This document shows, one piece after another, positions 20,201-40,159 of a stretch of DNA of 64,000 nucleotides. Positions within the stretch are counted from its first letter, which is position 1. Every line of letters starts with the position of its first letter. The notes under the pieces were generated by a model. The model was not told where the DNA came from and ran no database searches. It worked only from the letters and a program-made list of their open reading frames with translations. This DNA comes from Acidobacteriota bacterium. GTDB lineage: Bacteria > Acidobacteriota > Thermoanaerobaculia > UBA5066 > Gp7-AA6. Location of the stretch: NCBI GenBank assembly GCA_020199905.1, contig JAIVJS010000011.1:1-64000 (forward strand), read 5' to 3'. The translations under genes and the position numbers were made by a program.

Positions 20201-23200
20201 GCTGGATCTGCGCCTGCGTCCACGCGAGCATCGTGGTGCGGTCGAAGGCGGCGCCTTCCCGGTACTTGTCGACGAGGCCGATCGCCTCTTCGCGGCTGTC
20301 GGCCGCGAGGGTGACGTACTGGATGCGCGCCGTCTCGCCCGGACGGATGAGGACGCGACGCCGCAGCGAGAAGACGGGGTCGAGGACCGGGCCCGTGGTG
20401 TTCGAGAGAAGCCGGCCCGCTTCGAGCGACGCGGGGTTTCGGACCGTCCGCCCGCGGCCCAGAAACCGCGCCCGATCGGTCTCGTACTCGAGGGTGCCCA
20501 CCGTCTCTCCGTCGACGCGCGCGGCGTGCGCCGCCCAGATAGGCGCCTCGGAGGCCTCTCGCGGCCGCCGGTGCGCGAGCAGCGCCTCCGGGCCTGGGAG
20601 AAACTCGGTCTGGACGAACAGTTTCGAAAAAGCCGGATGCGAAGAATCGCCCGCCGGGGACGCCAGCGCGAGCTCGAGATAGGAGGTGACTTCGATCTCC
20701 CTCGCGCGAGTCCCGTAGTTGGTCAGGGAGAGCTGGCGCACTTCGGCATCGGCCTCCGGAGAGACGACGATCAGAAGAGCGGTCGCGATCGGACCGTCCC
20801 GGCGGTGAATCTCGACCCGGTCTTCGTAGAAAACGGCCTCGTAGGAGTCCGCTTCCACGCCCGAGGGTTGATACCCGGCGGACCAGACGCGAAGACTCTG
20901 CGTATCCCGGAGGAAGAAATACGTTCCCCAGTCGTCGCGTGTGACGTCCTCGCGCCACCGGGAGATGTCCCGGTCCTTCCAGCGGCTGTACCCCGACCCG
21001 GCCGCGGTCGTCATCACGCTGTAGCGGCCGTTCGAGAGGATGTGGCCGCGCGGGATCGGATCGTGCGGAGACCGGAACCGGCGGAGCACCGGCGGAACGA
21101 AGTCGCGGACGTGAAGAGGCGAGCGCACCTCTTCGGCTCGAGGGCGCGCGACAGCGACCGCGCGCGGCGTACGCTCCTGCAGGAGCATCTCCGTCGCCTG
21201 GACGGACGGCTCGGAGTGAAACCGCCGGCGCATGACGCCCTCGAGGAGGACGTTGGCGAGCGCGACGATCGTCATGCCCTGGTGGTGGGCCATGAAGGCG
21301 CGCACGATCGCGATCCGTTCTCCGGCGGGCAGCCGGGACGGCGTCGCGTCGAGCGACTCGTAGAAGCCGTACCGGCCGCGCGCTCCGATCTCCGCGAAGC
21401 GCCGGAAGTTCTTCGCCGCGGCCGACGGGTCGATCATCGCGGCGAGGCCGGTCGCGTACGGCGCGACGACGAGGTCTTCGGACAGGCCCCGCTTCAGCCC
21501 GAGTCCGCTGACGCCGAAGTTCGAGTACTGGTACGTGAAATCGAGATCGCGCGCGTTGTAGGCGGCCTCGGAGACGCCCCAGGGAACGCCACGCTCCTCT
21601 CCGAATCGGATCTGGCGCGCGACGACGAGCCGGCTCGTCTGGTCGAGCAGGCTCCCTCCTGGAACGTCGAGTACCAGGTCGGGCATCAGGTACTCGAACA
21701 TCGATCCGGACCACGAGATGAGCGCCGACCCCTTCCCGACGGGCGTGAGAGCACGGCCGAGGCGGTACCAGTGCGAGGCGGGCACGTCGCCGCGCGCGAT
21801 AGCCAGGAAGCTCGCCAGACGCGCTTCGGACGCGAGGAGGTCGTAGTACCCGGGGTCGAGCCGCCCGTCCGCGGCGCGGTAGCCGATCGAGAAGAGCTTG
21901 CGTTCGGGGTCGAAGAGGAAGCGGAAGTCCATCTCCTCGAGGTATCGCGAAGCGTCGCGCGCGGTATCGAGGAAGCTCTGGGCGAGCGCCCGCGCCGAGT
22001 CCGCGCACCTCTCGAGCGAAGAGATCCGGGAGACGAGCCGCGGAGAACGGTCGGTCAGCTCCCGCAGGGCGAGAGCCGCCGTCTCGTAGCGGTCTCCCGC
22101 GGCTGCCAGCGAGATCTCCTCCCGCTCGAGCTCCTCGAGAATCGCGCGCGCCGGCCCGCCGAGGTCGCCGGCGGGAGTCGCCCAGCCGAAGAGCGCCGTC
22201 GCGTCCCTGCGCGCGCTCGCGACCGTTCCGCGCGCCGCCCGCGCCCAGTCGACCGCCTCGTCTGAAACGGCGCCGGGCTCTTCGAGCGCGAGCGCCTGCG
22301 CGGTGTCGACGAGCGTGTCGGCGTGGCCCGCGAGCGCCTCCCCCCGGGCAAGCCACTCGGATGCCGTTTCCGGCGCCGGAGCGAGAAGGGAGGAGAGCTC
22401 CGCGACCGGCGACTCAAGCTGCCGGCGCGTCACGGCGCCCTCCCGCCGCGCCGTCAGTCCCTCCATGCTCTCCCTCAGGATGGCGACCGAGTCGCCCACG
22501 CCCAGGAGCCCCTCGGGCGACCACAGCGGCCGCTCCCGGCGGGAGAGGCAGGCCTGGCGCATCGCGATCAGGAACCCGGCGAGGTTGCCGCTATCCACCG
22601 TCGACACGTAGCGCGGCTCGAGCGGCGCCAGGCTCGCGACGTTGTACCAGTTGAAGAAATGCCCGCGGTGGCGTTCCAGCTTTTCGAGCGTCGCGAAGGC
22701 CTTCTGGAGTCTCTCGCCCATCTGGAGGCTCCCGATCCATTCGAAGTCCGCGGCGGCCGCGGTCGAGAGAAGGCCGAGGCCGATGTTGGTCGGAGACGTC
22801 CGGCGCGCGACCACGGGCGCGGGGATCTCCTGAAAATTGTCCGCCGGCAGAAAGTTCTCCTCCGGTCCGGCGAAGTCCTCGAAGTAACGCCACGTCCGGC
22901 GCGCGACGAGGCGGAGCGCCGCGGCGTCGACCGCGGAGAGCGGCGCTTCCTCGATCACGCGCGGGGGCAGGGAGACGGTGCGCGCGATCAGCGGAGACAG
23001 CGCCCAGAGAAGGCTGAACCCGAGGGCCCACGGCAGGGCGGACGGCGTCATCCACGGCGCGAGAAGGGCGGCCGCGGCGACCACGACGGCCCCCGACATC
23101 CGGCGGTAGAACCCCGACACCTTAAGGTCCAGAACGAGATCCGCTTTCGCCGCGGGCGTCCACTCGAGCAGGTGGCGGCGGGTCACAAGGAGTCGCACGA

Positions 23201-25934
23201 GCGTGCGGAGGATCGCGTCCGAGAACATCCACGCCTGGTGGGCTAGAAACGCCACCCGCAGCGCCGTCTGGCCGCCCCACTGAAGAACGTCGGCCCCCAG
23301 GCCGCGGAGAAAGCTGCGCTTGGCGATGCCGCGACGCCGCGGCATCAGCTCCGCGAGAAAGGCGAACACGCCGGGCAGCGCGATCGTCCCCAGAACGAAG
23401 GCCGCCCAAACGAGAGGCCGGGCGCCGGTCGCGAGCCAGCTCGTGATCAGCAGCGCCACGGCGGCGGGCGCGGACAGCGAACGGCGGAGGTTGTCGAGGA
23501 TCTTCCAGCGCGCGATCGAAGGGAGCGGATTCGGGACCCGCTTGCGCGCGGCGTCGGGAACGCGCGGCCGGAGCCAGGGAAGCAGCTGCCAGTCGCCGCG
23601 CGTCCACCGGTGCTGACGGGAAGCGGCCACCTCGTAGTGTCCGGGAAACTCTTCGAAGAGGAGGATGTCGGAAACGAGACCCGCGCGCGCGAAGAGCCCC
23701 TCGAAGAGATCGTGGGAGAGGAGGGCGTTTTCGGGGACCCGATTCGAAAGCGCCCGCTCGAAGGCGGCGACGTCGTAGATTCCCTTGCCGGTGTAGATCC
23801 CCTCTCCGAACAGGTCCTGGTAGACGTCGGAGACCGCGAACGCATAGGGGTCGATTCCGCGCGGGCCGGAAAAGAGGCGCTGATAGAGAGTCCCGGCTCC
23901 GACGGCCGGCAGCATCGGCGTGACGCCCGGCTGGAGGACCCCGTAGCCCTCGACGACGCGCCCCGTTCCGGGATCGAAGACCGGCTCGTTCAGCGGGTGA
24001 GCCATCGTCCCGGCGAGCCATGCGACGTCGTCCCGCGCCAGACGCGTGTCCGCGTCGAGCGTCACCACGTACCGAACGCGGTCCGGCGCCTGAACGGAGG
24101 CGCCGGCGGTCGGGAGAAACGTCGTGTCGCGGGCGCCGCTCAGGAGCCGATTCAGCTCGTGGAGCTTGCCGCGCTTTCTCTCCCAGCCCATCCAGACGCC
24201 CTCGGCGGGATTCCAGACGCGCTTGCGATGGAAGAGATAGAAGCGGGGCAGACCGCCCGGGCCCGGACCGTACTTCTCGTTCAGGTCGGTTATCGCGGAC
24301 ACGGCGGTCGCGAGCAGCGCTTCGTCTTCCTCGGCGGTTTCGGAGGAGGAGTCCTCCCAGTCGGAGAGCAGCGCGAAGAAGACCTCCCCCTCTCCGTTTC
24401 CGAGGTAGTGGACCTCGAGCCGTTCGATCGTTTCGAGAGTCTCCGACTCCCCGGTCAGGAGCACGGGCACGGCGACCAGGGTCCGGGCTTCGGGCGGCAC
24501 GCCGCGGAGATATTCGAGCTTCGGAAGGCGGCGCGGGCCGCGGCTCTCCGTGACGTCCCGGTTCACGACGGCGATCGCGAGCTCCGAAGCGGGCACGAGC
24601 GCGAGCAGCGCGAGGAGCCAGAGAAGGGGGACCGGAGCGGGGCCGTTCGCCGTGAGCAGAAGGGGAAGAGCGGTCATCGCGGCGGTGAGCGCGAGGATGC
24701 TTCCCAGGTATCCGGGCGTCGCCCACCGGACGAACGCGCGCCGGATTCTCTGGGCGAGAGGCACGCGGCAGGCGAGCTCCTTCTCGAAGGCCTCGCGGCC
24801 CGACGAGATGAGGAAGTGCCCTGGGTCGCGAAAGCGGCCCGGAACCCCGGGGTCCGTCGCTTCCCGGGCATGCGCGGCGGCGCGCCGCGCGACCTGTGTC
24901 TCGGAGAATTCGCTCGTCTTCGCGAGCTCTTCGACGGCGTGCCGGTACCGGTCGCGGGTCGCAAAATCCATCTCGGCGACGCGGGTTCCCTCCTGGAGCG
25001 CCGCCTCCACGACACTGACGCTCTCGAAGAACGCGTTCCAGTCGACGGCGGACAAAAGCCGCATCGTCGTGATCACGTTGCGGACGCTGACGTGCGTAGC
25101 GACCTGGGCCTGCTGCTCCAGCCGCACGAGCTCATCCGCGTTCAGTCCCTCGGACGACAACCGCTTGTCGAGCCACTGGAGCGCGGGAGTCACGGCCGGG
25201 TCCTGTTCCCTGAGGCGCCCGAGGAGCCGCACGGCAAACTCACGCCGCAGAGGGACGCGGTCGAGAGCCGCGAGGCGCGACGCCGCGCTCGGGCCCGCGG
25301 CGGGAGCGGCGCCCCCGAGGAGGAACACGTCGGCGAGGATGTCGGCCTTCTCCCTCGCGCCGTGGCGCTCGTCCATCTCCTCGATCAGGCGGCGGAGGTT
25401 CTCGACCAGCACCAGTCGGAGCGAGATCGCGAGCGCCCAGAGCTCGCCGATCTTCAGGGTCTGGACCCGCTGGTAGGCGGCGATGAACCGCCGGAGGGTT
25501 TCAATCTCGAAATAGCTGTCCGTGTGCGCGACAAACGCCCACGCGATGGTGTTCACGCGCGGAAACCCGGCGAACGGGCCGGACCCGAGCTTCGGCAGCT
25601 CCGCATAGAACCCCGACGGCAGGTCCTGGCGGATCTCCCGGATCTGCTCTTCGACGAGGTGGAAGTTGTCGACCAGCCATTCGGCCGCGGGCGTGATCCC
25701 GCCCTCCCGCCGCATCGAGTCCGCGATGGACCGATAGGAGGTCAGGAGGACGCGGCTGTTTTCCTCCAGCCGTTTCAGGACGCCGCGTCCCCGGCGCTTC
25801 CCCGGCAGAACGGAATGCGATGCCGCGAGCGCCTCGGCGAACTGCTCCAGCCTTTCGGTCGAGAAGATCTCGGCGCGGATCGGCGCGGCCGAGTCCGGAG
25901 ACAGGACGGCGACCTCTTTTCCCGGAGCGATCAT
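17220..25934 (-). CDS. ndvB: Cyclic beta-1,2-glucan synthase (NdvB/ChvB/Cgs type)
   Basis: A 2904-residue inner-membrane enzyme that builds and cyclises periplasmic beta-1,2-glucan from UDP-glucose. An N-terminal helical region is followed by membrane helices (near 410-445) and a family-84-type glycosyltransferase with DADTRL near residue 627 and HRWTRGDWQ near 775. More helices follow, then a glycoamylase-like domain (around 1450-1620). Two beta-sandwich regions precede the C-terminal GH94-like phosphorylase domain with GTGDWNDGMNRIG (near 2580), which sets chain length in Brucella Cgs. The length matches NdvB (about 2800-2900). I chose ATG 25934; the frame stays open for 139 more codons upstream, but these are low-complexity. 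TAGAAT at 26015-26020 is a possible -10. Confidence 0.93.
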   Translation of the reverse strand: MIAPGKEVAVLSPDSAAPIRAEIFSTERLEQFAEALAASHSVLPGKRRGRGVLKRLEENSRVLLTSYRSIADSMRREGGITPAAEWLVDNFHLVEEQIREIRQDLPSGFYAELPKLGSGPFAGFPRVNTIAWAFVAHTDSYFEIETLRRFIAAYQRVQTLKIGELWALAISLRLVLVENLRRLIEEMDERHGAREKADILADVFLLGGAAPAAGPSAASRLAALDRVPLRREFAVRLLGRLREQDPAVTPALQWLDKRLSSEGLNADELVRLEQQAQVATHVSVRNVITTMRLLSAVDWNAFFESVSVVEAALQEGTRVAEMDFATRDRYRHAVEELAKTSEFSETQVARRAAAHAREATDPGVPGRFRDPGHFLISSGREAFEKELACRVPLAQRIRRAFVRWATPGYLGSILALTAAMTALPLLLTANGPAPVPLLWLLALLALVPASELAIAVVNRDVTESRGPRRLPKLEYLRGVPPEARTLVAVPVLLTGESETLETIERLEVHYLGNGEGEVFFALLSDWEDSSSETAEEDEALLATAVSAITDLNEKYGPGPGGLPRFYLFHRKRVWNPAEGVWMGWERKRGKLHELNRLLSGARDTTFLPTAGASVQAPDRVRYVVTLDADTRLARDDVAWLAGTMAHPLNEPVFDPGTGRVVEGYGVLQPGVTPMLPAVGAGTLYQRLFSGPRGIDPYAFAVSDVYQDLFGEGIYTGKGIYDVAAFERALSNRVPENALLSHDLFEGLFARAGLVSDILLFEEFPGHYEVAASRQHRWTRGDWQLLPWLRPRVPDAARKRVPNPLPSIARWKILDNLRRSLSAPAAVALLITSWLATGARPLVWAAFVLGTIALPGVFAFLAELMPRRRGIAKRSFLRGLGADVLQWGGQTALRVAFLAHQAWMFSDAILRTLVRLLVTRRHLLEWTPAAKADLVLDLKVSGFYRRMSGAVVVAAAALLAPWMTPSALPWALGFSLLWALSPLIARTVSLPPRVIEEAPLSAVDAAALRLVARRTWRYFEDFAGPEENFLPADNFQEIPAPVVARRTSPTNIGLGLLSTAAAADFEWIGSLQMGERLQKAFATLEKLERHRGHFFNWYNVASLAPLEPRYVSTVDSGNLAGFLIAMRQACLSRRERPLWSPEGLLGVGDSVAILRESMEGLTARREGAVTRRQLESPVAELSSLLAPAPETASEWLARGEALAGHADTLVDTAQALALEEPGAVSDEAVDWARAARGTVASARRDATALFGWATPAGDLGGPARAILEELEREEISLAAAGDRYETAALALRELTDRSPRLVSRISSLERCADSARALAQSFLDTARDASRYLEEMDFRFLFDPERKLFSIGYRAADGRLDPGYYDLLASEARLASFLAIARGDVPASHWYRLGRALTPVGKGSALISWSGSMFEYLMPDLVLDVPGGSLLDQTSRLVVARQIRFGEERGVPWGVSEAAYNARDLDFTYQYSNFGVSGLGLKRGLSEDLVVAPYATGLAAMIDPSAAAKNFRRFAEIGARGRYGFYESLDATPSRLPAGERIAIVRAFMAHHQGMTIVALANVLLEGVMRRRFHSEPSVQATEMLLQERTPRAVAVARPRAEEVRSPLHVRDFVPPVLRRFRSPHDPIPRGHILSNGRYSVMTTAAGSGYSRWKDRDISRWREDVTRDDWGTYFFLRDTQSLRVWSAGYQPSGVEADSYEAVFYEDRVEIHRRDGPIATALLIVVSPEADAEVRQLSLTNYGTRAREIEVTSYLELALASPAGDSSHPAFSKLFVQTEFLPGPEALLAHRRPREASEAPIWAAHAARVDGETVGTLEYETDRARFLGRGRTVRNPASLEAGRLLSNTTGPVLDPVFSLRRRVLIRPGETARIQYVTLAADSREEAIGLVDKYREGAAFDRTTMLAWTQAQIQLRHLSITPDEAHLFQRLATRLVYFDPSLRAPGELLVRNRKGRSGLWRHGISGDHPIVLLRIDSEDDQDIVRQLLRAHEYFRLKRLVVDLAVINEQATSYGEDLQGALEALVRTRQRLSGDAGDTGGIFVLRGDRLTDEDRDLLLTAARVVLLSRHGSLSEQIVRLLRATPAPPAPRALPLRRVAAETPPSQQGLEFFNGLGGFDQDGREYVTILGERQWTPAPWINVVANPNFGFLVSDSGSGYTWAGNSRENQLTPWSNDPVSDPPGEAILIRDEETSEVFGVTALPVRDDAPYVARHGQGYSRFEHDVSGLKLELLQFVPVEESIKISRLTLENRSSETRVLSVNAYAEWTLGTSRSAMAPFIVTERDGKTGTLLARNAWNEDFQGLAFADLGAGVSAWTTDRTEFLGRNGRLETAAGLARGARLSGRVGAGFDPCAALQTKIRLAPGEKAAVVFLLGHAPNETAARSLVQRFRSDGIEAAFAAVERQWDDVLGALRVTTPDRSMDLMLNRWLLYQTLACRVWGRSAFYQAGGAFGFRDQLQDVLALTVSRRDLTREQILRAASRQFPEGDVQHWWHVPSGKGVRTRISDDRIWLPYCVVHYLDVTEDRAILDERLPFVNGAPLAPGEAERFFQPEISSEDATLYEHCARALDVSLAAGERGLPLMGTGDWNDGMNRIGEHGKGESIWLGWFLHTALREFTSIAEKRGETERAQRWRARVAELKEALEGAGWDGNWYRRAYFDDGTPVGSAGSEECRIDSIAQSWAAISGAGDPERVRRAMAAVEEYLVRRGDGLVLLFTPPFDRAPVDPGYIKGYLPGVRENGGQYTHAALWCVIAFAALGEGDKATELFSILNPVNHASTRAGLHRYKVEPYVAAADVYNEVPHIGRGGWTWYTGSAGWMYRAGVEWILGFRLRGTSLHLDPCIPRSWEGFEIAFRYHSARYELSVRNPNGATRGIASVEIDGAVQPNGAREIPLVDDGKAHRIRVVMG

Positions 25935-26199
25935 GGGACCGATTCCCCGTCGAGAGGCCTCAGGATCTCGGTGAGGCCGAGGCGGGAGCCCGATGGAAAA
26001 GGCCAAGATGGGGATTCTATTCCGGCGGCGAGAGGTCGCGTTTGGAACGCGGCGGCCTTCGATGAACGATTCCGCGAGCCAGCTCCCCACACCCCAGCCC
26101 CTCTCCCCGCGCGTGGCGAGGGAGCAAAGGGGGCCGGCCGATCCCTGGCAGCTCGAACCAGACCACCGCCCGGGCATTGTTCTTGCGGGCTCGGCCGTC
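25935..26199. other. Divergent intergenic region between ndvB and the L,D-transpeptidase gene
   Basis: 265 nt with no supported gene. It must hold both promoters; TAGAAT (26015-26020, leftward) is the best -10-like hexamer for ndvB. A G/C-rich imperfect palindrome (CTCTCCCCGC... ...GCGAGGGAG, about 26097-26123) resembles two others at 28706-28836 and one at the right edge. Confidence 0.45.
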
Positions 26200-27228
26200 A
26201 TGACACACACAGCCCGGGCCCTCCTCTGTCTCTTCGTTGCCGTCGGAGCGATTCCCGCGTCGGCGAGCCCGCGCCGCGCGCCGGCTCGAAAGCCGCGGGC
26301 CTCGCGGCCGCCGAAAACCGCAACCGTTCGGCTCGACGCCGCCACCGTCAACGATCCCGCGCTGGCCGCGCCGGTGCGCCCGGGATCGGGCGGCGGCGCC
26401 GTCCTGCGGGCGCAGGTGCTTCTGGCGCGAGCCCACTTCTCTCCGGGGGAAATCGACGCGAAGTACGGGAGCAGCCTGAAAAAAGCGATCGCCGCTTTTC
26501 AGAAAGCGAAGAGCCTCCCGGAAACCGGCGAAGTGGACGCGGCGACCTGGGCCGTACTCAACTCCGACACGGCGCCCGCGCTCGTGCAGGCGCCGATCTC
26601 GCCCGAAGACGTGGCCGGCCCGTTTCTGCCGATTCCCCGGGACATGGCGGAGAAGGCGCAGCTGCCCGCCATGAATTACTCCTCTCCGCTCGAGGGTCTC
26701 GCGGAGAAATACCACGCGAGCCCGAGCCTGCTGAAAGCGTTGAACCCGGGCGCGACATTCGACCAGGCCGGGCAGACACTGACCGTGCCTGGAGTGGCCG
26801 TTCCGCTCCCCGGCCGAGCCGCGCGCATCCGCGTCTCGAAAAACGAGCGATCCGTGACCGCCTACGACGACCAGGGAAACGCGCTCGCCTGGTACCCTGC
26901 CACGATCGGAAGCGAGCACGACCCCCTGCCGCTCGGGGAGTGGAAGATCCGGGGCGTGTCCCGGAACCCGCGCTTTCGCTACAACCCGGACCTCTTCTGG
27001 GACGCGCGGCCCGGGGAGGGGAAGGAGTGGATTCCGGCCGGACCCAACAACCCGGTCGGAGTCGCCTGGATCGACCTGTCCAAGCCTCACTATGGAATCC
27101 ACGGGACGCCGGAGCCTGCGAACGTGGGCAAGACCGAGTCGCACGGGTGCATCCGGCTGACGAACTGGGACGTGTGGGAGCTGCAGCAGATGGTTTCGCC
27201 GGGCACGCCCGCTCTCCTCGAGGAGTGA
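26200..27228 (+). CDS. L,D-transpeptidase (YkuD) with peptidoglycan-binding and LysM-like domains
   Basis: A 342-residue exported peptidoglycan cross-linking enzyme. After a signal peptide (1-24, ending PASASP) and a basic linker comes a peptidoglycan-binding-1 domain (about 60-120: VLLARAHFSPGEIDAKYG, then AIAAFQKAKSLPETGEVDAATW). A LysM-like segment follows (about 160-200: LAEKYHASPSLLKALNPG). The YkuD catalytic domain (about 205-340) holds IHGTPEP and the catalytic ESHGCIRLTNWD, with the nucleophilic Cys. It should make 3-3 cross-links or attach proteins. The frame is open 69 codons upstream, but only ATG 26200 gives a signal peptide. The M23 peptidase gene follows within 3 nt. Confidence 0.92.
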   Translation: MTHTARALLCLFVAVGAIPASASPRRAPARKPRASRPPKTATVRLDAATVNDPALAAPVRPGSGGGAVLRAQVLLARAHFSPGEIDAKYGSSLKKAIAAFQKAKSLPETGEVDAATWAVLNSDTAPALVQAPISPEDVAGPFLPIPRDMAEKAQLPAMNYSSPLEGLAEKYHASPSLLKALNPGATFDQAGQTLTVPGVAVPLPGRAARIRVSKNERSVTAYDDQGNALAWYPATIGSEHDPLPLGEWKIRGVSRNPRFRYNPDLFWDARPGEGKEWIPAGPNNPVGVAWIDLSKPHYGIHGTPEPANVGKTESHGCIRLTNWDVWELQQMVSPGTPALLEE

Positions 27229-30012: not shown

Positions 30013-30105
30013 GTTGAGCGTCGAGCGTTCAGCGTTGAGCGTTCAGACCGGAGCCGGGTTTCGCCTCGATTGAAGTCTCAACTCATGACCCTCAACTCTC
30101 GAATC
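30013..30105. repeat. Heptad tandem array, GTTNAGC and TCAACTC types
   Basis: Five clear units of GTTNAGC type (30013-30047), a degenerate middle, then units of TCAACTC type (about 30078-30105). It lies just beyond the stop codon of the first PKD-cupredoxin gene. Confidence 0.8.
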
Positions 30106-30119: not shown

Positions 30120-31166
30120 TCACTGCACAACCAGGGTTCCCAGCATGAACGTGTGCTGCTGCGGGTCTCCGCCGCAATCGTTGTTGGTGCAGGAGAAGGG
30201 GTGCGCTCCGCGATGAAAAGACTGGGGCGTGAAGACTTCGGTCGTGTAGTCGCGGCCGGGCGAGATCGTGTTGCCGGGGCTCGCGGAGATGCCGATGTCC
30301 GAGATTCCGGAGAAACCATGGTTGGGCAGGGTCGTGCCCGCGGGGTCGACGTTGTGAAACCGCAGCCGGTAGGCGGTGCCGACGTTGACGACCAGCGGCG
30401 GCGCGAACGGACCTCCCGGCGAGAACTCCCATGCCTTGGTGTTGATCGTGATGACCTGCACTCCCGCGGGCGGCGTCGGGGTCGGCGTCGGTGCCGGCGT
30501 CGGCGTGAAACCGGACGTATCGAACTGCCCCGACGGATGCGCGGGATCCTGCGCGTACGTCTTGACGATTCCCGTCGCGTTTTCCTTCACCGACAGGGAG
30601 AAATCCAGATCCGTCATCGTCCCGTAAAACACCCAGTAACCCTGCCCGATCCCGGAGGCGTCCACCATCTTGACGATCAGCTCGGGGTTCCCTGGATTGC
30701 CGGACAGCGTCGGCAGGCTGAAGTAGCCGTACACGTCGTTCTGACCGATCACGACGCCGGACCCGGTCGCGCCGGTGCGCTGGTCGCGCGCCGTCAGCGT
30801 GATGTCGAAGCTGTGCGCCGCGTTCAGGCGGAGGACCCCGGCGGGAGTGACGGTGATCGGCAGCGTCGCGCTTGCCGAGCCCGAGGCGTTGCCCGCGGTC
30901 AGCCGGACGGTGAACGCGCCCGCGGTGGCGAATGCGTGCGCCGGATTGCGCTCGCTGGACCTGCCGCCGTCGCCGAAGTCCCAGCTCCAGGCGGTCGGGT
31001 TGCCCGAAGACGCGTCCGCGAAGGAAACGAGAGAGCCGGCGGCCGGGCTCGGCGTGGAGGCGGTAAAGGCCGCCCCGGGAACGGCCGCGGTCAGACCCAG
31101 AACCGCGCCGAGCGCCAGGAGGCACAGCACGACGGCGCCTCCCCCGTCGAGCCGGACGCGCCGCAT
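30120..31166 (-). CDS. Secreted PKD / cupredoxin-like protein, paralogue 1 (last of three in the operon)
   Basis: A 348-residue exported protein. A signal peptide (about 1-30) leads to a PKD domain (about 35-105, with WSWDFGDGGRSSERNP), then a conserved middle domain (about 110-225, with IGQNDVYGYFSLP, IVKMVDASGIG and YWVFYGTMTD). A Pro-Thr linker follows, then a C-terminal cupredoxin-like domain (about 245-348) with LPNHGFSGI and HPFSCTNNDCGG, and a terminal His/Met region that could bind type I copper. It differs from its two neighbours by an insertion before the last ligands. Start ATG 31166 gives the signal peptide and has AAAGGG upstream. It is probably a periplasmic or surface copper protein; the function of the middle domain is unknown. 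Confidence 0.8.
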   Translation of the reverse strand: MRRVRLDGGGAVVLCLLALGAVLGLTAAVPGAAFTASTPSPAAGSLVSFADASSGNPTAWSWDFGDGGRSSERNPAHAFATAGAFTVRLTAGNASGSASATLPITVTPAGVLRLNAAHSFDITLTARDQRTGATGSGVVIGQNDVYGYFSLPTLSGNPGNPELIVKMVDASGIGQGYWVFYGTMTDLDFSLSVKENATGIVKTYAQDPAHPSGQFDTSGFTPTPAPTPTPTPPAGVQVITINTKAWEFSPGGPFAPPLVVNVGTAYRLRFHNVDPAGTTLPNHGFSGISDIGISASPGNTISPGRDYTTEVFTPQSFHRGAHPFSCTNNDCGGDPQQHTFMLGTLVVQ

Positions 31167-31297
31167 GCCCTTTGGACGACCGCCGGAGCCTTCGAGTTGA
31201 CGCCTCCTTTGGGACCGGGTTGAGAGTGGAGCCTTCGGCGTCGAGCGCCAGCCCCCGGTAACCCTCCCTGGCAACCCCTCCCCGGCCCCGGTCCCCG

Positions 31298-31332
31298 GAC
31301 TCAGGATGGAAAACTGATCACCGAAAACTCTC
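31298..31332. repeat. Heptad tandem array
   Basis: Five 7-bp units (GACTCAG, AACTGAT, AACTCTC and variants). It ends exactly at the stop codon of the second PKD-cupredoxin gene (31333). Confidence 0.75.
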
Positions 31333-32385
31333 TCATCTCACCACCTGAATGACCCCCGTCATGCCGTCGTGGCCGATTCCGCAGCCGGTGTTGCTGCAGC
31401 CGAACGGGTGGAAGCCCACCTGCGCGGCGGTCGGTGTGAACGTCCGGATCACCGCGGCGGCCTGCGGCGGGAGGTTCGTTCCGCTCAGTCCGAGAGCCGG
31501 GATCCCGCTGAAGGCGTGGTCGGCGTTGCCGCGAGCGTCGATGTCCTTGATGTGCAGCTCGTACTTCGTCCCGACTTTCGCGACGAACGCGCTGCCGCCA
31601 TTGTCGAAGTCCCATTGGAACTGTCGCGCGGTGAGAGTCACGACGATCGCGCCGGCAGGTCCGGGGGTGGGCGTCGGGGTCGGCGTGGGACTCGGAGTCG
31701 GCGGCGGATCCTCGGTGACCGGGATCGGCAGGAATCCGGAGGTGTCGAACTGGCCACAGGGCTTCCCCAGGTCTTTCGCGTATCTCTTCACGACGCCTGT
31801 CGCGTTCTCCTTGACCGAGAGCGTGTACTCGAGGTCCGTCATGCATCCGTAGAAGACCCAGTAGTTCTGGCCGATGCCCGTCGCGTCGACCATTTTGACG
31901 ATTACTTCCGGATTGCCCGCGTTGCCCGAGACCGCGGGAATGCTGAAATAGCCGTACACGTCGTTCTGCCCGATCACTTTTCCCGAGCCGGTGTTGCCCG
32001 TCCTCGGGTCGTTCGCCGTCAGGGTCAGGTCAAACGTGTGCGCCGCGTTCAAGCGCAGAACCGTGTCGGGCGTGACGGTGACGGCGAGTGTGGACGTGGC
32101 GGGGCCCGACGCGTTGCTCGCCGTCAAACGGACCGTGAACGCCCCCGGCGCCGCATACGCGTGGGTCGGGCTCTGCGCCGTGGACGTGGTGCCGTCGCCG
32201 AAGTCCCATGCCCACGACGTCGGGCCCCCCGTCGAGGTGTCGGTGAACTGCACGACCGAGTTCGCCGCCGGATTGGGGGTCGAAGCCTGAAAGGACGCGG
32301 ACGGCGCCGTGACGGCGGTGACGCCGGCGAGAATCGAGAGCCCGAAGACGGCGAACATCTTGAGAAGGCCGGAAAAAGGGGTCAT
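31333..32385 (-). CDS. Secreted PKD / cupredoxin-like protein, paralogue 2
   Basis: A 350-residue paralogue of the genes on either side. Order: signal peptide or anchor (1-28), PKD domain with WAWDFGDGTTSTAQSP, middle domain with IGQNDVYGYFSIP, IVKMVDATGIG and YWVFYGCMTD, a (P/T)-repeat linker (TPTPTPTPGP), then the C-terminal cupredoxin-like domain. There, NADHAFSGI offers a His, and FGCSNTGCGIGHDGMTG offers the Cys-His-Met set of a blue-copper site. An extra pair of cysteines (in GCMTD and KPCGQ) is absent from paralogue 3 and could form a disulphide. GAGGCG precedes ATG 32385. The copper assignment is inferred from the ligand pattern. Confidence 0.82.
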   Translation of the reverse strand: MTPFSGLLKMFAVFGLSILAGVTAVTAPSASFQASTPNPAANSVVQFTDTSTGGPTSWAWDFGDGTTSTAQSPTHAYAAPGAFTVRLTASNASGPATSTLAVTVTPDTVLRLNAAHTFDLTLTANDPRTGNTGSGKVIGQNDVYGYFSIPAVSGNAGNPEVIVKMVDATGIGQNYWVFYGCMTDLEYTLSVKENATGVVKRYAKDLGKPCGQFDTSGFLPIPVTEDPPPTPSPTPTPTPTPGPAGAIVVTLTARQFQWDFDNGGSAFVAKVGTKYELHIKDIDARGNADHAFSGIPALGLSGTNLPPQAAAVIRTFTPTAAQVGFHPFGCSNTGCGIGHDGMTGVIQVVR

Positions 32386-32471
32386 AACGCCTCGAGTTGG
32401 ACGACCGGGACGGCGCTCAGGTTCGCGCCGGATCCGGAAACCAAAAAGTTGGACACCATGGGCCGCACCGG

Positions 32472-33536
32472 TCAGTTCACGTGGAGGACGCCGACCATGC
32501 CCGAGTGGCCCGTGCCGCAATTGGGAATCGCGGAGCACGAGAAGGTATACGTTTTCCCGCGCTCGGACAGCGGCGCGGTGAACGTCACCCGGTAAGGCCG
32601 CGGCGGGCTCCCGCCGCCGTAGGGATCTCCCTCGCTTCCGGGGCTGATGTTCGAGGTGCCCGCGATTCCCAGGGCCGGAACTCCCGAGAAGCCGTGCGTC
32701 ACGTCCAGCGCAGTGAAGATGAGGGTCGCCGGCGCCCCCGCGGTCACCTCAATCGGCGACGCGGTCCCCGGCTGGAATCGGAACTGCGAGACGCCGATTT
32801 CGATCGTCTGCGGAGCCGAGCTGCCCGGCGGCGGCGTGGGCGTCGGGGTGGGGAGCGCCGCGCCCGGCGTGGGCGTCGACGCGAAGCCGGTCGTGTCGAA
32901 CTGGCCGGACGGTTTCGCGTCATTCTTCCTGTAGGTCTTGACGACGCCCGTCGCGTTCTCTTTGACGGAGAGCGTGAACTCGAGGTCCGTCATCGAACCG
33001 TAGAAGACCCAGTAGTTCTGGCCGATGCCCGTCGCGTCGACCATCTTCACGATGATCTCCGGGTTTCCCGCGTTTCCCGACAGGGACGGAAGGCTGAAGT
33101 ACCCGTAGACGTCGTTCTGGCCGATCACCTTGCCGGAGCCCGTGTTCCCCGTGCGGGGGTCTCGCGCGGTGAGCGTCAGATCGAACGGGTGCGCTCCGTT
33201 CAGGCGCAGGACGCCGGAATCGGTGACCGTGACCGCGAGCGTTGCGCTCGAAGGTCCCGACGCGTTGGACGCCGTGAGCCGCGCCGTGAAGGATCCGGGC
33301 GCCGCGTACACGTGCGACGGGTTGCGCTCGGTGGAGGTTCCGCCGTCGCCGAAATCCCACGCCCACGACGCGGGTCCGCCGGTCGACGTGTCGGTGAACA
33401 GGATGAGCGACTCGGCGGCCGGGTTTGACGTCGACGCGGTGAACGACGCGCTCGGGGCGGAGGTCGCGAAGATCCCGCCGACGGAGGCGAAAACCGAAAG
33501 GGTGAGAACGGCGAAGAGACTGGCCGTGAAATTCAT
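32472..33536 (-). CDS. Secreted PKD / cupredoxin-like protein, paralogue 3 (first in the operon)
   Basis: A 354-residue protein with the same four-part build: signal peptide (1-28), PKD domain with WAWDFGDGGTSTERNP, middle domain with IGQNDVYGYFSLP, IVKMVDATGIG and YWVFYGSMTD, then a Pro-Thr linker. The cupredoxin-like C-terminus has VTHGFSGV, TFSCSAIPNCGTGHSGMVG and a final beta strand. Cys, His and Met spacing fits a type I copper site. It is separated from paralogue 2 by 86 nt and from 1 by another spacer, all on the same strand. The three-fold tandem duplication, with strong conservation of the middle domain, implies selection on that domain as well as on the copper site. Confidence 0.82.
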   Translation of the reverse strand: MNFTASLFAVLTLSVFASVGGIFATSAPSASFTASTSNPAAESLILFTDTSTGGPASWAWDFGDGGTSTERNPSHVYAAPGSFTARLTASNASGPSSATLAVTVTDSGVLRLNGAHPFDLTLTARDPRTGNTGSGKVIGQNDVYGYFSLPSLSGNAGNPEIIVKMVDATGIGQNYWVFYGSMTDLEFTLSVKENATGVVKTYRKNDAKPSGQFDTTGFASTPTPGAALPTPTPTPPPGSSAPQTIEIGVSQFRFQPGTASPIEVTAGAPATLIFTALDVTHGFSGVPALGIAGTSNISPGSEGDPYGGGSPPRPYRVTFTAPLSERGKTYTFSCSAIPNCGTGHSGMVGVLHVN

Positions 33537-33597: not shown

Positions 33598-33657
33598 ACT
33601 CTCAACGCTCAACGCTGAACTCTCAACGCTTAACCAACTCTTAACTCTGAACTCTGG
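33598..33657. repeat. Heptad tandem array, ACTCTCA/ACGCTNA type
   Basis: Eight 7-bp units with one 4-bp slip at 33633-33636. It fills the spacer between the PKD operon and the tyrS promoter. Confidence 0.88.
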
Positions 33658-34994: not shown

Positions 34995-35567
34995 TCAACG
35001 ATCTTCCGCTTCATCGGGCCCGCGCCTCGCCCCCGGACGCCCGTGGGACCCGCGCGAGCGCGCCCGGACGCGCGGCTCCGTCCGCGCGCCGTTCTTTCCG
35101 GCTTTCAGGAACAGGAGGAGCCCCACGAGCAGAAACGCGAGCATGGCCTGGAGCGTCAGGAACGACAGGAGCTTCAACCACGCGAATCGCGGATCGACGA
35201 ATCTCACGAGCCACGAGCTTCCCTCTTCGACGAGCGCCGAAAGGAAGGAGGTGGCGATCATGGCGATCTTCGCGCGCCGGGACCAGGGCGCGAAGATCAT
35301 CAGGTGCGTCAGGAGAAGAAGGACGAGAGCCATCATCGGCAGATGGCTGTGCGTCACTTCGAGCATCGCGCCCGCCGTCCGCGGAGCCCGGAAATCCGCC
35401 TCGGACCCGCGGTAGTACGCCCCGATCGAGGCCGGAGTCAGCCCGAGCCGGGACACGAACAGGACGGCGTTCGTGCACCAGAAGCCCGCCAGCAGGAGAC
35501 AGGTGAGCCCGAGGGTCCAGCGCATGAGCTCCTGAGACTGGAATCCGCCGCGCTCCATGTACTTCAT
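34995..35567 (-). CDS. Four-helix membrane protein of the iron operon
   Basis: A 190-residue inner-membrane protein with hydrophobic helices at about 16-38, 76-92, 100-120 and 133-155, and a basic, disordered tail from about residue 158. Three histidines near the second helix (H73 and H75 in VTHSHLP, H88 in LLTHLM) could ligate haem, so a b-type cytochrome role is possible but not proven. I do not recognise a named family. ATG 35567 overlaps the stop of the FMN-binding gene by 4 nt, and the upstream open frame is low-complexity. As the last gene of the fur-apbE operon it may pass electrons from the membrane to the flavoprotein. Confidence 0.72.
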   Translation of the reverse strand: MKYMERGGFQSQELMRWTLGLTCLLLAGFWCTNAVLFVSRLGLTPASIGAYYRGSEADFRAPRTAGAMLEVTHSHLPMMALVLLLLTHLMIFAPWSRRAKIAMIATSFLSALVEEGSSWLVRFVDPRFAWLKLLSFLTLQAMLAFLLVGLLLFLKAGKNGARTEPRVRARSRGSHGRPGARRGPDEAEDR

Positions 35568-36157
35568 GGCGCGGCGGAGAGAACGTGGTGGACCGCGAGA
35601 ACGCGCCGGACCGCGGCCGCGATCGCCCGGGTCGTCAGCGTCGCGCCCGAAACGTGCGCGAGGCCGCGTCCGACCGAGAGCTCGTCGTCCAGGGGTTTCT
35701 TCGAGAAGAGACGCAGCCACGACGGCCGCGGGAGATAGTCCTCGGGCTCCCCGAACGCGACGACCTCGACCTCGCCCGCCGCTCCATCGGGCGTTACGGT
35801 GACGAGAAGGGTCTCCGACGCGGTGCGGACGGGATGGGTGTCGAAGTAGGCCGTCCCCAGGAGTCCCGAAGCGCTGCGGCCCGCGTACGCGACGACGAGC
35901 GAGGACTCGACCTTCGCGCGGGCCTCCCGGCTCGCCCGCTTCCGCTGCTCGGGTGTCAGAGAGAGCGTGCGGCGCTCGATCGTCGCCGGAGACGGAAACG
36001 CGCGGGCCAGAGCCTGATCACGCGTCTCATAGACGGGCGCCGCCGCCACGGGCGCCGCGAAAAAGAGGCACAGCAGGAATCGCCGGGCCGGGCGCCGTTT
36101 GATTCTCTGCCCTTCCCCCTTCGCCGTGCGCCGTGTCGTTCCCCTCAAAACAGCCAC
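35564..36157 (-). CDS. Exported FMN-binding domain protein (flavinylation target)
   Basis: A protein of up to 197 residues. A basic start is followed by a signal peptide (about 26-40, FLLCLFFAAPVAAA) and an FMN_bind domain. Near the C-terminus is HVSGATLTTRA (168-178), the [S/T]GAT motif in which ApbE attaches FMN to the threonine, here T173. The protein should carry covalent flavin in the periplasm. The ApbE gene two positions upstream in the operon supports this. GTG 36157 overlaps the porin 3' end by 13 nt; the exact start is uncertain because no clear ribosome binding site is visible. Its stop overlaps the next ATG. Confidence 0.82.
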   Translation of the reverse strand: MAVLRGTTRRTAKGEGQRIKRRPARRFLLCLFFAAPVAAAPVYETRDQALARAFPSPATIERRTLSLTPEQRKRASREARAKVESSLVVAYAGRSASGLLGTAYFDTHPVRTASETLLVTVTPDGAAGEVEVVAFGEPEDYLPRPSWLRLFSKKPLDDELSVGRGLAHVSGATLTTRAIAAAVRRVLAVHHVLSAAP

Positions 36158-37542
36158 CCGAGCGCGACGTTCCAGCGATCGGTCGAGGAGCGGGCGCGAT
36201 CGTCGAAATCCTGGTAGTCGGCCTTCACCACGATCTGGGGGATCGGCTTGAACTGGAGCCCGAACGTCCAGAGCCGCACGTCGTTTGCGGGGTTGCTGGC
36301 GAACCCGGCAGGCACCCGCTGCTGCGTCCGAAGGCGCTCGTAGCGGAAAAACGGAACCAGCGATGCGTCGCCGCCGCGGAAAAAGAGCACGTCATAGCCG
36401 GCTTCGGCGTAGGCCCCCGAAAAGACCTCCGGCACCGAGCCCTCTCCCGTCAGACCCGCGAGCGCGTTGATCCGGGCGGCGTCGCCGATCGTCCCTCTCG
36501 CGTAAAGAGCGCGCGCCTGAATCCCCCGCCAGCGCCACTCGGCGTGCAGATCGAAGAGCGAGACCCCGCCGCGCAGGCGCCTTCCTTCGATTTCCCGGCC
36601 CTGTCCCGACTCTCCGAAGTATCCGGAGGTTCCGGCGACGACCCCCGGCAACCCGACGTAGTCGAGGCGTCCGGTCACTGCGACGCTCTCCGCGAGCGCG
36701 TTCGAGCCTTCCTGGCGACCGCCCCGGATCGCCTCGCCGGCCGAGAAGCCGGCGGCGTCGAGGCCGCTGACGACGTATCCCCGGTAGGCGAGAGGCCCCG
36801 CCTGCCCGAACACACCGACGCCGAGCTCGCTCCACGTCGAGGGAAGGATCCGCTGTTCGACCTCGGGGCGGCTCGCTCCGAGGAAGACCGGCGGCTCATG
36901 CAGCTCGTTGACGAATCCCATCGGGACCAGGACGAGGCCGGCGCGGACTCCCATGGCGCGGTTCTTTCCGATCAGATAGTCCAGGTACGCGAACTCGACG
37001 GCGACCTCTCCTTTTTCCTCGCTTCCCGCGCCCGTCGACGCGTGCTCGTACTCGACTTCCGAATTGAACAGGAAACGGTCGTCGAACTTGTACCCGAAAT
37101 AAAAGACGGCGCGCAGGAGGTCGACACGGTCGGAGAGGTCGGACATCGTCCCGTCATCCCTCTTCCGCGCGAAATTCTGATAGAGAGCCTCGCCGTATCC
37201 GCCGATCGACGCGCCGTGCTCCGAGCGATAGACGCGCGAGGCCGCCGGCCCCAGACCCGGCACGGAATGGGAGGCGGCCGCGCTCTCCGCGGCCTTCTCG
37301 GGGACGCCCGTCCGCAGCGTCTCGATCTCCCGCGTCAGCGCGTCGATCTGAACCCGAAGCTCCTCGAGCGCGCGGCGGGTCTCTTCGTCTGCCGCCCGGG
37401 AAACCGCGTCGAGCCGCTTCTGAAGCTCTTCGATCTTCGCCTCGAGCTCCCGGGTTTTCTGCTCGGAAGCGGTCTGCGCCGCGAGCGGCGAGGGCCCCGT
37501 CAGAAAAAGGAGGGCCACGGCCAGGCACGCGATTCTCTTCAC
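36145..37542 (-). CDS. Outer-membrane porin-like protein with N-terminal coiled coil
   Basis: A 465-residue protein. A signal peptide (1-22, ending PLAAQ) is followed by a heptad-rich coiled coil (about 26-78: ELEAKIEELQKRLDAV...) and a beta-barrel domain of alternating hydrophobic strands. It ends in an aromatic residue (ALGWLF), as outer-membrane proteins require. The coiled coil followed by a barrel resembles trimeric phosphate or iron-regulated porins of other diderms. The substrate is not known. ATG 37542 overlaps the apbE stop by 4 nt. Its place in a fur-led operon suggests a role in passing an iron source across the outer membrane. Confidence 0.82.
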   Translation of the reverse strand: MKRIACLAVALLFLTGPSPLAAQTASEQKTRELEAKIEELQKRLDAVSRAADEETRRALEELRVQIDALTREIETLRTGVPEKAAESAAASHSVPGLGPAASRVYRSEHGASIGGYGEALYQNFARKRDDGTMSDLSDRVDLLRAVFYFGYKFDDRFLFNSEVEYEHASTGAGSEEKGEVAVEFAYLDYLIGKNRAMGVRAGLVLVPMGFVNELHEPPVFLGASRPEVEQRILPSTWSELGVGVFGQAGPLAYRGYVVSGLDAAGFSAGEAIRGGRQEGSNALAESVAVTGRLDYVGLPGVVAGTSGYFGESGQGREIEGRRLRGGVSLFDLHAEWRWRGIQARALYARGTIGDAARINALAGLTGEGSVPEVFSGAYAEAGYDVLFFRGGDASLVPFFRYERLRTQQRVPAGFASNPANDVRLWTFGLQFKPIPQIVVKADYQDFDDRARSSTDRWNVALGWLF

Positions 37543-38624
37543 GAATTCCCCCGGTCCGCCGCCGCGGGCGGCGTTTCCGCCCAGGAGCCGAGCCGCCTCC
37601 AGGCCCGGCTGGCTCGGCGGGCGCCCGACGCCTCCACGAAAAACGCCGCAATGCTCCGGGCATCGGCGAAGGCGAGTCCGGCGTCGGGGCCCATTACGAA
37701 AAGCGCGGTCGAAAGCGCATCGGCGCGCAGGCCCGCGGCCGCGAAGACGCTCGCGGAGCCGTGAAACGAGGCCGCGCGGCCGGTGCGCGGGTCAATCAGG
37801 TGGCCCGGCTGCTCCGCATCTCCCGAAGTCGACAGCGACCCGTCGGGGATTTCGACGCGTGAGACCACGCATCCCGACGCGTCGGGCGCCGCGACGGCGA
37901 CGCGCCCATAACCCCCCGTCCGGCCGGCGGGCGTCGCCGAGCCGAACACGAGGATCTGTCCGCCAAAATTGAGGCGGGCGCTTTCGACACCGCCGGCGCG
38001 CAAGGCGGCAGCGGCCGCGTCGAGGCCCTCCCCTTTTCCGAACGCGCCCGAATCGATCGCCGTCTCTGCCGAGTCGAACGCGAGCGTGCCTCTCTCGGGG
38101 TCGAAACGAGCGTGACGGTACCCGATGGAGGCCAGCACGGCCGCGGCGGGGTCCTGGTTGCGGTCGGCGGGAGTCGAGACGAGCTTCGAGATCGTAATGG
38201 CGCCGACGGTGGGATCGAACGCCCCGCCGGTTTCCTCGGCGAGGGCGAAGGCGGCGGAGAGGCTTCCCCAGGTCTCGGGCGAAAGCGTAAACGGGCTCCG
38301 CCCCGCGGCGCGATTGGCCCGCGAGAGCTCGGACGCCGGCGACCAGTTCGAGAGACGGCTCTCGACCCGACCGACGGCCGCAAACGCTCTCTCGACGGCC
38401 GCCTCGAGGGAGGACGCGGGAAGAGGACCCGCCGCGTCGATCTCGAGGACGGTGCCCATCCGGTACTGAACGCGCCGCACGGACGGCCGGGCCCGGCCCG
38501 CGGAGGCGGCTCGCGGCGGCAGGGCCGCGGCCGTGGCGAGAACCGCGCCGCCAAGACAGAGACTCAGTCTCAACGCGATCCGGCTCCGCGGCGCCGGCGA
38601 GACTCGAGAGGAGGGCAACGTCAC
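37539..38624 (-). CDS. apbE: FAD:protein FMN transferase
   Basis: A 361-residue exported ApbE enzyme that transfers FMN from FAD to a Thr of FMN-binding proteins. After a signal or anchor segment (about 12-32), the catalytic domain has YRMGTVLEIDAAG, GAFDPTVGAI, and AIDSGAFGKGEGLDAAAAAL (the family usually has DLGGIAKGYA here). The end carries SGDAEQPGHLIDPRTGR and ALSTALFVMGPD, the Mg/FAD site. GTG 38624 forms a GTGA overlap with the fur stop, which fixes the start. A 13-bp perfect palindrome, GAGACTCAGTCTC, lies in its first codons (38559-38571) and resembles the Fur-box candidate upstream of fur. The likely substrate is encoded two genes downstream. Confidence 0.9.
   Translation of the reverse strand: MTLPSSRVSPAPRSRIALRLSLCLGGAVLATAAALPPRAASAGRARPSVRRVQYRMGTVLEIDAAGPLPASSLEAAVERAFAAVGRVESRLSNWSPASELSRANRAAGRSPFTLSPETWGSLSAAFALAEETGGAFDPTVGAITISKLVSTPADRNQDPAAAVLASIGYRHARFDPERGTLAFDSAETAIDSGAFGKGEGLDAAAAALRAGGVESARLNFGGQILVFGSATPAGRTGGYGRVAVAAPDASGCVVSRVEIPDGSLSTSGDAEQPGHLIDPRTGRAASFHGSASVFAAAGLRADALSTALFVMGPDAGLAFADARSIAAFFVEASGARRASRAWRRLGSWAETPPAAADRGNS
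38559..38571. promoter_or_regulatory. Palindrome inside apbE resembling the Fur-box candidate
   Basis: GAGACTCAGTCTC is a perfect 13-bp palindrome. It shares a 14-base identity (GACTCAGTCTCAAC) with the site at 39164-39180. It could be a second Fur site or chance within coding DNA. Confidence 0.3.
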
Positions 38625-39136
38625 GCCGTCGGAAGAATGCGGAGCTTCCCGCCCGGCACGGCCGCCGCCGCCGCCGCCCGCCCGGCCTCGCGCGAGCTGA
38701 CCCGAGGACGGCACTGCCGGCAGATTCCCCTCAGCTGGTGGCTGTGGGATAGCGCCAGGAAACCGTACTTCTCGCAGACCTGGTCCTGGAGGCTCTCGAT
38801 GGCGGGCTCGAAGAACTCGATCACCCGTCCACACTCATTGCAGATCAGGTGGTCGTGGTGCTCCCCCGCCCGGAGGCGCTCGTAGCGATAGCCCGATTCG
38901 CCGATCCGGACGCGGCCGACGATCCCGGAATCGACGAGCAGGTCGAGTGTGCGGTAGATCGTGGCGCGCGAGATCTTCTTGTGCTTGGTCCGAAGCCGCA
39001 CGAGCAGCTCGTCGGCCTCGAAATGCTCGTGGCGGGCGAAGAGCTCATCGAAGAGGGCCTGCCGCTCCGACGTCAGCTTCAAGCCCCGCTTTTCGAGGTA
39101 CTTCCTGAAGATGCTCAGTTCGCGGTGCGGCTTCAT
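38621..39136 (-). CDS. fur: Ferric uptake regulator family repressor
   Basis: A 171-residue metalloregulator. The winged helix is at about 10-85 (LTSERQALFDELFARHEHFEADELL, then ISRATIYRTLDLLVDSG), and the dimerisation and metal domain follows with GEHHDHLICNECGRVIEFF and CRQC, giving the zinc Cys pairs and His ligands. The tail after about 150 is Ala-rich. ATG 39136 has GGGGAGG just upstream; the longer open frame adds unrelated residues. It is the first gene of a five-gene operon, and a Fur-box-like palindrome lies 28 nt upstream. Autoregulation and control of the divergent FTR1 gene are therefore likely. PerR or Zur specificity cannot be excluded from sequence alone. Confidence 0.9.
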   Translation of the reverse strand: MKPHRELSIFRKYLEKRGLKLTSERQALFDELFARHEHFEADELLVRLRTKHKKISRATIYRTLDLLVDSGIVGRVRIGESGYRYERLRAGEHHDHLICNECGRVIEFFEPAIESLQDQVCEKYGFLALSHSHQLRGICRQCRPRVSSREAGRAAAAAAVPGGKLRILPTA

Positions 39137-39163
39137 GCGCCCTCCCCGGCGAAGAATATGCGA

Positions 39164-39180
39164 TTGCGACTCAGTCTCAA
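39164..39180. promoter_or_regulatory. Candidate Fur box between fur and the FTR1 gene
   Basis: TTGCGACTCAGTCTCAA is a 17-bp inverted repeat (8-1-8, one mismatch). It fits the 7-1-7 Fur pattern TGA.A.T.A.T.TCA in spacing and ends. It lies midway between the divergent starts (39136 and 39239), next to CATATT and GTATTC, which are possible -10 boxes on either strand. Confidence 0.6.
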
Positions 39181-39238
39181 CTGGCGTATTCTTCCGCTCC
39201 CGGACGGCCGCTGTCAAGCCGGCAAGGAGCACAGAGCC

Positions 39239-40026: not shown

Positions 40027-40159
40027 GTTCAGCGTTGAGCGTCGGGCGTTAAGCGTCCAGGCGAAGCGTCCAGGCGGGTCGCCAGTATCCGGTCTGCCCG
40101 GAGCCGCGGTCTGCGCCCTCCCTTCGATTCCCGATCCCGGCCTCCTGCCTCCCGCCTTC
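40027..40159. repeat. Two heptad arrays between the FTR1 gene and the lipoprotein gene
   Basis: GTTNAGC/GTCCAGG-type units at 40027-40074 (seven units, one 6-bp) and CGATTCC/TGCCTCC-type units at 40125-40159 (five units). Together with a G/C-rich middle they make up the whole spacer. Confidence 0.75.

Follow-up and report, generated by a model that had tools for sequence, protein, structure and literature searches.

The CuA cupredoxins, in which two coppers bridged by two thiolates give a purple mixed-valent spectrum, form the electron-entry domain of cytochrome oxidase and nitrous oxide (N2O) reductase. The canonical spacing of their ligands is Hx34Cx3Cx3Hx2M (PMC6189053). In type 1 blue and red copper sites, the Cys-to-His spacing is two to four residues (PMC4059628). 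Loop length is reported to shape the copper sites of cupredoxins (PMC4059628) and, on a CuA scaffold, the reorganization energy (PMC7480511). Here, we analyzed a 64,000-nucleotide stretch of the genome of an Acidobacteriota bacterium (contig JAIVJS010000011.1, positions 1 to 64,000; the window) and focused on three tandem genes at 30120-33536. Their products, designated P1, P2, and P3, end in a putative copper-binding head that resembles a CuA domain and departs from its spacing.

The three open reading frames (ORFs) lie on the minus strand and are read in the order P3 (32472..33536; 354 amino acids), P2 (31333..32385; 350 amino acids), and P1 (30120..31166; 348 amino acids), with intergenic gaps of 86 and 166 bases. 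Each encodes an N-terminal hydrophobic leader with the character of a signal peptide, a PKD domain, a middle domain, a TP-rich linker, and a C-terminal domain of ~110 residues, the head. An initial annotation, made from the sequence of the window alone, had described three tandem paralogues with common parts; the ORFs, the PKD matches, and the mutual similarity of P1–P3 in a search of their own genome (E 1.1e-103 or better, far beyond chance) bear this out. We slightly favor the view that P1–P3 are exported copper electron carriers in which CuA-descended heads are mounted on exchangeable stalks.

Predicted fold and CuA kinship of the heads

The heads (amino acids 240–354 of P3, 32475..32819; 244–350 of P2, 31336..31656; 234–348 of P1, 30123..30467; all minus strand) have in common the ligand set His + Cys + Cys + His + Met. 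All five ligand columns fall within the 20 invariant columns of the three heads, a coincidence with a chance probability of 2e-4, and both loop Cys are kept in every paralogue (C326/C331 in P1, C330/C335 in P2, and C334/C340 in P3). The initial annotation had assigned His plus Cys-His-Met as copper ligands. Those residues are indeed present, but the second Cys is kept as well and the nearest matches are CuA proteins, which argues against a plain blue-copper site.

Scans of the whole proteins returned PKD together with a weak match to CoxB. When the heads were searched alone, those of P2 and P3 matched the NCBIfam CoxB family (TIGR02866) with E values of 2.3e-5 (24 bits) and 2.4e-4 (20.7 bits). 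Both scores lie below the curated cut-off of 147.7, the P1 head had no match, and hydropathy gave no sign of a membrane anchor past the leader, so that P1–P3 do not qualify as CoxB proteins. A profile of the three window heads returned 31 matches in the PDB at E<=1, 30 of which are CuA proteins (oxidase subunit II, N2O reductase, and CuA azurin; best E 0.0031). A wider profile was built from 20 of 30 head sequences; the ten left out include the one-Cys head G002a and the broken C84 fragment described below. It matched T. thermophilus-type CuA at ~1e-20 to 1e-22 and N2O reductase at 1.7e-13, values biased by the canonical CuA sequences in its input. All profiles in the head searches were built from or included heads with lengthened loops (hereafter, stretched heads), which biases what surfaces first.

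The AlphaFold2 model of the P2 head, computed from three sequences, contains nine strands, with a predicted local distance difference test (pLDDT) score of 85.7 and a predicted template modeling (pTM) score of 0.79. Foldseek searches with this model placed caa3 subunit II (2yev; 5.3e-6), CoxB (4w9z), N2O reductase, and 2cua at the top. Structure prediction, which the initial annotation had proposed as a check on the cupredoxin fold, thus returned that fold in the model, in Foldseek, and in VIA-align, with the ligands of the P1–P3 heads at the expected alignment positions; we regard the cupredoxin fold as firmly predicted. Because all three heads keep His + Cys + Cys + His + Met, because CuA proteins come first in the sequence profiles, and because the best Foldseek matches are CuA domains, the heads are nearer to the CuA domains of cytochrome oxidase subunit II and N2O reductase than to blue copper proteins. 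A type 1 blue copper site was rejected as first choice on the two conserved Cys and the CuA-first profile and Foldseek matches, and is weighed below as a rival.

The structural matches also included CupA (4f2e) and a CopA domain (4f2f), and copper chaperones use cupredoxin folds; PCuAC is described in PMC6696091. These matches point to another possible task for the heads, which would hold Cu(I) through thiols and Met for scavenging, detoxification, or hand-over rather than for electron transfer. The ligand set, however, is that of a redox site, with two His in the CuA positions, and not a Met-rich chaperone motif. In addition, no copper transport gene was identified among the ten neighboring ORFs scanned. 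Copper capture or delivery is therefore very improbable.

Stretched ligand loops and their relatives

The loop that bears four of the five ligands reads C-x4-C-x6-H-x2-M in P1 (C326, C331, H338, and M341; 30144..30191), C-x4-C-x3-H-x2-M in P2 (C330, C335, H339, and M342; 31360..31398), and C-x5-C-x3-H-x2-M in P3 (C334, C340, H344, and M347; 32496..32537), all on the minus strand. The first ligand lies earlier in each protein (His283, His290, and His281, respectively), which gives overall spacings of x42/x4/x6/x2, x39/x4/x3/x2, and x52/x5/x3/x2. In P1, the gap from the second Cys to His is three residues longer, which is the insertion near the ligands that the initial annotation had noticed; P3 has one extra residue between the two Cys (x5 vs x4) and a longer stretch ahead of the loop. 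A type 1 site has a single loop Cys and a short Cys-to-His distance; P1–P3 instead have two Cys, with His 8–11 residues past the first.

Relatives extend this series. The inter-Cys and Cys-to-His gaps are 4 and 3 in two further copies in the window's own genome (contigs C81 and C84), 4 and 9 in genome G001, 4 and 6 in G002b, G018, and G009, and 4 and 5 in G005. All ten stretched heads retain His...Cys, Cys, His-x2-Met, and nine of them have exactly four residues between the Cys. Judged from their sequences, the P1–P3 heads are not canonical CuA domains and are better described as CuA-like. Since both Cys are retained in all ten stretched heads, the site appears somewhat likelier to hold two coppers than one.

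The Cys pair could also be read as a structural disulfide in a cupredoxin-fold surface domain that binds no metal, with P1–P3 acting only as stalk or adhesion proteins. Such a role would suit exported proteins with Cys 5–6 residues apart, quickly diverging heads, and a stalk domain common to many other proteins. It would not account for the conservation of the His, His, and Met of the CuA set along with the Cys in all ten heads, or for a one-Cys orthologue that keeps the complete type 1 set, and we consider it improbable.

That orthologue was found in G002, a genome of the same family, in which two head genes share a 5.7-kb contig with genes for an L,D-transpeptidase, an M23 peptidase, and a CBS protein, the neighbors that are also found in the window (CBS 61% identical). 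We compared the heads in a loop-free tree of 30 rows, which comprised 29 of the 30 head sequences (without the C84 fragment) and G001. The first G002 head (G002a) groups with P3 (99/99), and the second (G002b) groups with P1 (98/98) in a clade that also includes G001, whose placement is unsure because of its very long branch. The reading frame of G002a is uninterrupted, and its one-Cys loop, C-x2-H-x4-M, has what we take to be plastocyanin-like spacing. G002a is the only orthologue with the single loop Cys of a type 1 site.

G002a bears directly on a mononuclear alternative, in which lengthening of the loop would have converted an ancestral CuA site to one of type 1 or green type composed of one Cys, two His, and Met, leaving the other Cys spare or weakly bound. 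The clean loop of this syntenic P3 orthologue indicates that the fold tolerates a mononuclear loop in the lineage. Green sites have Cys-to-His gaps of six or more (six in AcoP and seven to eight in NiR; PMC4059628), and engineered one-Cys loops function on the CuA scaffold (PMC7480511). A spare Cys, however, would not need to be kept in every stretched head and at so constant a distance from its partner, and we judge a mononuclear site in P1–P3 to be rather unlikely.

Several observations weigh against the view of P1–P3 as CuA-descended electron carriers. The canonical Hx34Cx3Cx3Hx2M spacing is broken in all three paralogues, the Cys-to-His gap ranges from 3 to 9 among the ten stretched heads, which is odd for a strict site, and the heads diverge fast between paralogues (32–38% identity). 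The P1 head, searched alone, matched no CuA family. VIA-align placed CuA level with Cupredoxin_1, AcoP, and nitrosocyanin (Z 11–12) among the families that it listed, unlisted ones remaining possible, so that CuA does not stand out on structure alone. Scanning of the ten neighboring ORFs identified neither an oxidase gene nor one for copper handling. With regard to the number of coppers, the kept Cys pair speaks for two, whereas the broken spacing and variable Cys-to-His gap speak against. CuA kinship of the heads remains well supported by sequence and less so by structure.

A head search across 148 genomes of the class returned 11 places in 6 genomes: nine stretched heads, one canonical head (G017), and one one-Cys head (G002a). 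Because G001 was missed by the head profile and found by a full-length search, further stretched heads may be hidden from the profile. G001 belongs to another genus of the same family, and its protein repeats the whole PKD-middle-linker-head architecture. Outside the window's taxonomic order, a 396-genome sample of the phylum yielded 17 places in 15 genomes, every one of them canonical. Among 37 mixed, mostly foreign genomes, five had a head match, all with C-x3-C. These genomes were picked from 80 loci of a contig scan dominated by the PKD part and are hence PKD-rich; two of them (G506 and G512) apparently duplicate G007 and G073, with identical match positions. The 80 loci themselves contained no middle domain and no convincing head. 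The window's own genome also encodes CoxB and a small CuA-like protein (L140), both of them canonical. In the samples searched, stretched loops are confined to the window's order.

In the loop-free tree, the canonical G017 head is sister to three stretched heads (95/93); loop length has therefore changed more than once. We tentatively suggest a broader scenario in which members of this order freed CuA from respiratory enzymes and placed it on exported stalks. The loop would vary (4–5 residues between the Cys and 3–9 before His) while the ligands are kept, yielding working two-copper sites off the canonical spacing, and P3 and G002a would represent a natural switch, in one direction or the other, between CuA and type 1 loops.

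Stalks, selection, and genomic surroundings

The PKD domains of P3 (amino acids 28–104; 33225..33455), P2 (28–105; 32071..32304), and P1 (33–107; 30846..31070), all on the minus strand, match Pfam PF18911 with E values of 4.8e-16 to 1.4e-19 (the three scores being 59, 64.4, and 70.4 bits vs a gathering score of 27); that of P1 also matches PF00801. The middle domains follow on the same strand at 32883..33212 in P3 (amino acids 109–218), 31732..32061 in P2 (109–218), and 30507..30836 in P1 (111–220). At 78–85% pairwise identity, compared with 61–74% for PKD, the middle domain is the best conserved part, as the initial annotation had stated. The additional Cys of P2 (C181 and C210), which that annotation linked to a diverged redox potential or partners, sit in the middle domain and not near the putative copper site; redox tuning by them is not supported, and they were rejected as copper ligands. 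Hydropathy analysis revealed no membrane-like stretch past the leader in P1–P3. The full-length model is poor outside PKD, with a pLDDT of about 45 for the middle domain.

The middle domain had been left without a nameable function. Searches with one copy from the window and two other copies from the same genome found no match in Pfam or NCBIfam at E<=10. The best match of a middle-domain profile in the PDB (0.017) involved one chain and 31 positions only. The domain is not specific to P1–P3. It is present in 80 of 145 genomes of the class, with 30 copies in the window's own genome and up to 63 in one genome, and in two of the 37 mixed genomes, both Acidobacteria or Thermoanaerobaculia (by match positions, apparently G007 and G073), which would assign the window to the Thermoanaerobaculia. 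Since it occurs in dozens of other proteins, it is not copper-specific. In the first set of loci, the domain ends <=10 residues before the stop codon in 27 of 36 ORFs, P1–P3 being among the nine exceptions; the same holds for 23 of 25 ORFs among the best-scoring loci of ten hand-picked other genomes of the class. Two tandem copies are frequent in these positions. In P1–P3 and the G001 protein, the domain is internal with the copper head behind it. C-terminal placement recalls the sorting or attachment domains of other secretion systems, and the middle domain may possibly have such a function.

The G002 locus indicates how stalks and heads have evolved. The G002b gene encodes a different exported scaffold that lacks both PKD and the middle domain, and this scaffold is matched by as much of the G002a gene as the contig contains. 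Because the N-terminal parts differ between syntenic orthologues, the heads are the conserved element of the locus and the stalks have been exchanged. Between the P1 and G002b heads, the nonsynonymous rate (dN) is 0.30 and the synonymous rate (dS) is 0.99; the dN/dS of about 0.3 indicates purifying selection, with synonymous sites near-saturated. Recent gene conversion is not supported as the source of the high stalk identity in the window, as dS is near saturation (about 1) in stalk and head alike; that identity is explained by strong purifying selection, with a dN/dS of about 0.09–0.12 for the middle domain. In G002, dS is 0.35 over 40 codons for the stalk ends of the two genes and 0.84 for the heads, so that the stalk ends seem the younger part.

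A DUF1800-DUF1501 gene pair of the same strand immediately precedes three other stretched heads: those on C81 (L160:7048-11325) and C84 (L161:7849-12410) of the window's own genome (G000) and that on C61 of G001 (L180:3821-9234). The C84 DUF1501 gene was recognized by its similarity to the one on C81. On C81 (L160:7048-9007), the head is out of frame with the end of DUF1501; on C84 (L161:7849-8700), the head lacks its first strands, and there is a frameshift past a lipoprotein-like leader. Both copies, broken or truncated at the N-terminus, look like pseudogenes or assembly faults. G009 (L163:2124-10070) carries DUF1549/DUF1553, DUF1501, and a cytochrome-c type protein (PF13442) in series, followed on the other strand by a stretched head, within several kilobases, and G018 has a DUF1549/DUF1553 gene within several kilobases of its head gene. 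DUF1501 and DUF1800 are reported to co-occur in operons that contain bacterial chitin synthase genes, and Tat export is predicted for DUF1501 (PMC5122149). A functional link between DUF1501/DUF1800 and copper redox proteins is possible, and offers a lead to partners rather than proof.

The tandem genes are flanked by a divergent tyrS-like gene upstream and by genes for uracil-DNA glycosylase and a CBS protein downstream. Arrays of a degenerate 7-base unit (TTGAGCG) bracket the cluster in inverted orientation at 30014-30048 and 33599-33633; a third array lies at 40028-40055, and the window holds 7 matches vs 0 in 100 shuffles. Beyond tyrS, a minus-strand group at 34995-39232 encodes a hydrophobic protein without a Pfam match, a weakly matching FMN_bind protein, a porin-like protein without a Pfam match, ApbE, and FUR. 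This group, which lies near the genes for the putative copper proteins, resembles an extracytoplasmic redox cluster based on flavin. A minus-strand ORF of 3043 codons at 17220-26351 presumably resembles cyclic beta-glucan synthase. No viral relatives were found in three scans (one with the head and two with the middle domain), and a search for plasmid relatives of the P2 head returned none.

Proposed role and comparison with known systems

In the model that we favor, P1–P3 would be exported through Sec, and the PKD stalk, the class-typical middle domain, and the flexible TP-rich linker would carry the copper head at the C-terminus. The head would descend from a CuA cupredoxin cut loose from any oxidase. 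The five CuA side-chain ligands are retained; compared with CuA, the loop that bears four of them has one or two additional residues separating the Cys and as many as three (six in a relative) ahead of His. Most likely, the heads would bind copper and serve as one-electron carriers between periplasmic or extracellular partners. Because loop length is reported to shape copper sites, the different loops of P1–P3 suggest different potentials or partners, such that each paralogue may have its own; the stalks would serve as exchangeable display modules. The copper redox role put forward in the initial annotation is plausible, because a predicted cupredoxin fold with its ligands in place is combined with an apparently exported modular protein, although the plain blue-copper site is not supported.

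Searches of open-licence PMC articles showed none that, by title or abstract opening, concerns stretched CuA loops or P1–P3. The closest profile and Foldseek matches of the heads belong to the CuA domain of CoxB (TIGR02866; T. thermophilus ba3 CuA, 2cua), which is alike in predicted fold and in the order and identity of the five side-chain ligands; HxF after the first His in P1–P3 is a further shared feature. They differ from it in having C-x4/5-C instead of C-x3-C, C-x3 or x6-H, and 39–52 rather than 34 residues between the first His and first Cys. Moreover, P1–P3 lack a membrane hairpin, bear PKD and middle-domain stalks, and are not encoded beside oxidase genes. The small single-domain CuA-like proteins of the phylum (L142-L158; L140 in the window's own genome) have a homologous head that is likewise not part of an oxidase, but 17 of 17 keep the canonical C-x3-C-x3-H-x2-M. 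Type 1 cupredoxins such as plastocyanin, AcoP, and rusticyanin have the fold and the His, Cys, His, and Met in common with P1–P3, but contain only one Cys and a different loop spacing, which G002a alone fits.

Two further systems bear comparison. In PmoD, a cupredoxin that is likewise separate from any oxidase, the CuA site is non-canonical (PMC6189053); this site lies between two monomers and uses another ligand set, whereas P1–P3 keep the canonical five residues in one domain. CuA-based chimeric type 1 sites, in which the loop was swapped on a CuA scaffold (PMC7480511), are comparable to P3 vs G002a, except that the chimeras were engineered and P3 and G002a are orthologues that diverged naturally. 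A natural series of lengthened loops, together with an orthologue pair having two Cys and one Cys, would allow the effects of loop length on the number of coppers, potential, and reorganization energy, so far explored by engineering (PMC7480511), to be tested with evolved proteins. In addition, the findings suggest that a group of Acidobacteriota deploys copper electron carriers mounted on exported stalks, and they draw attention to an unnamed C-terminal domain that is very abundant in the class. We regard P1–P3 as an unusual version, arisen in nature, of a textbook metal site and not as a new kind of system.

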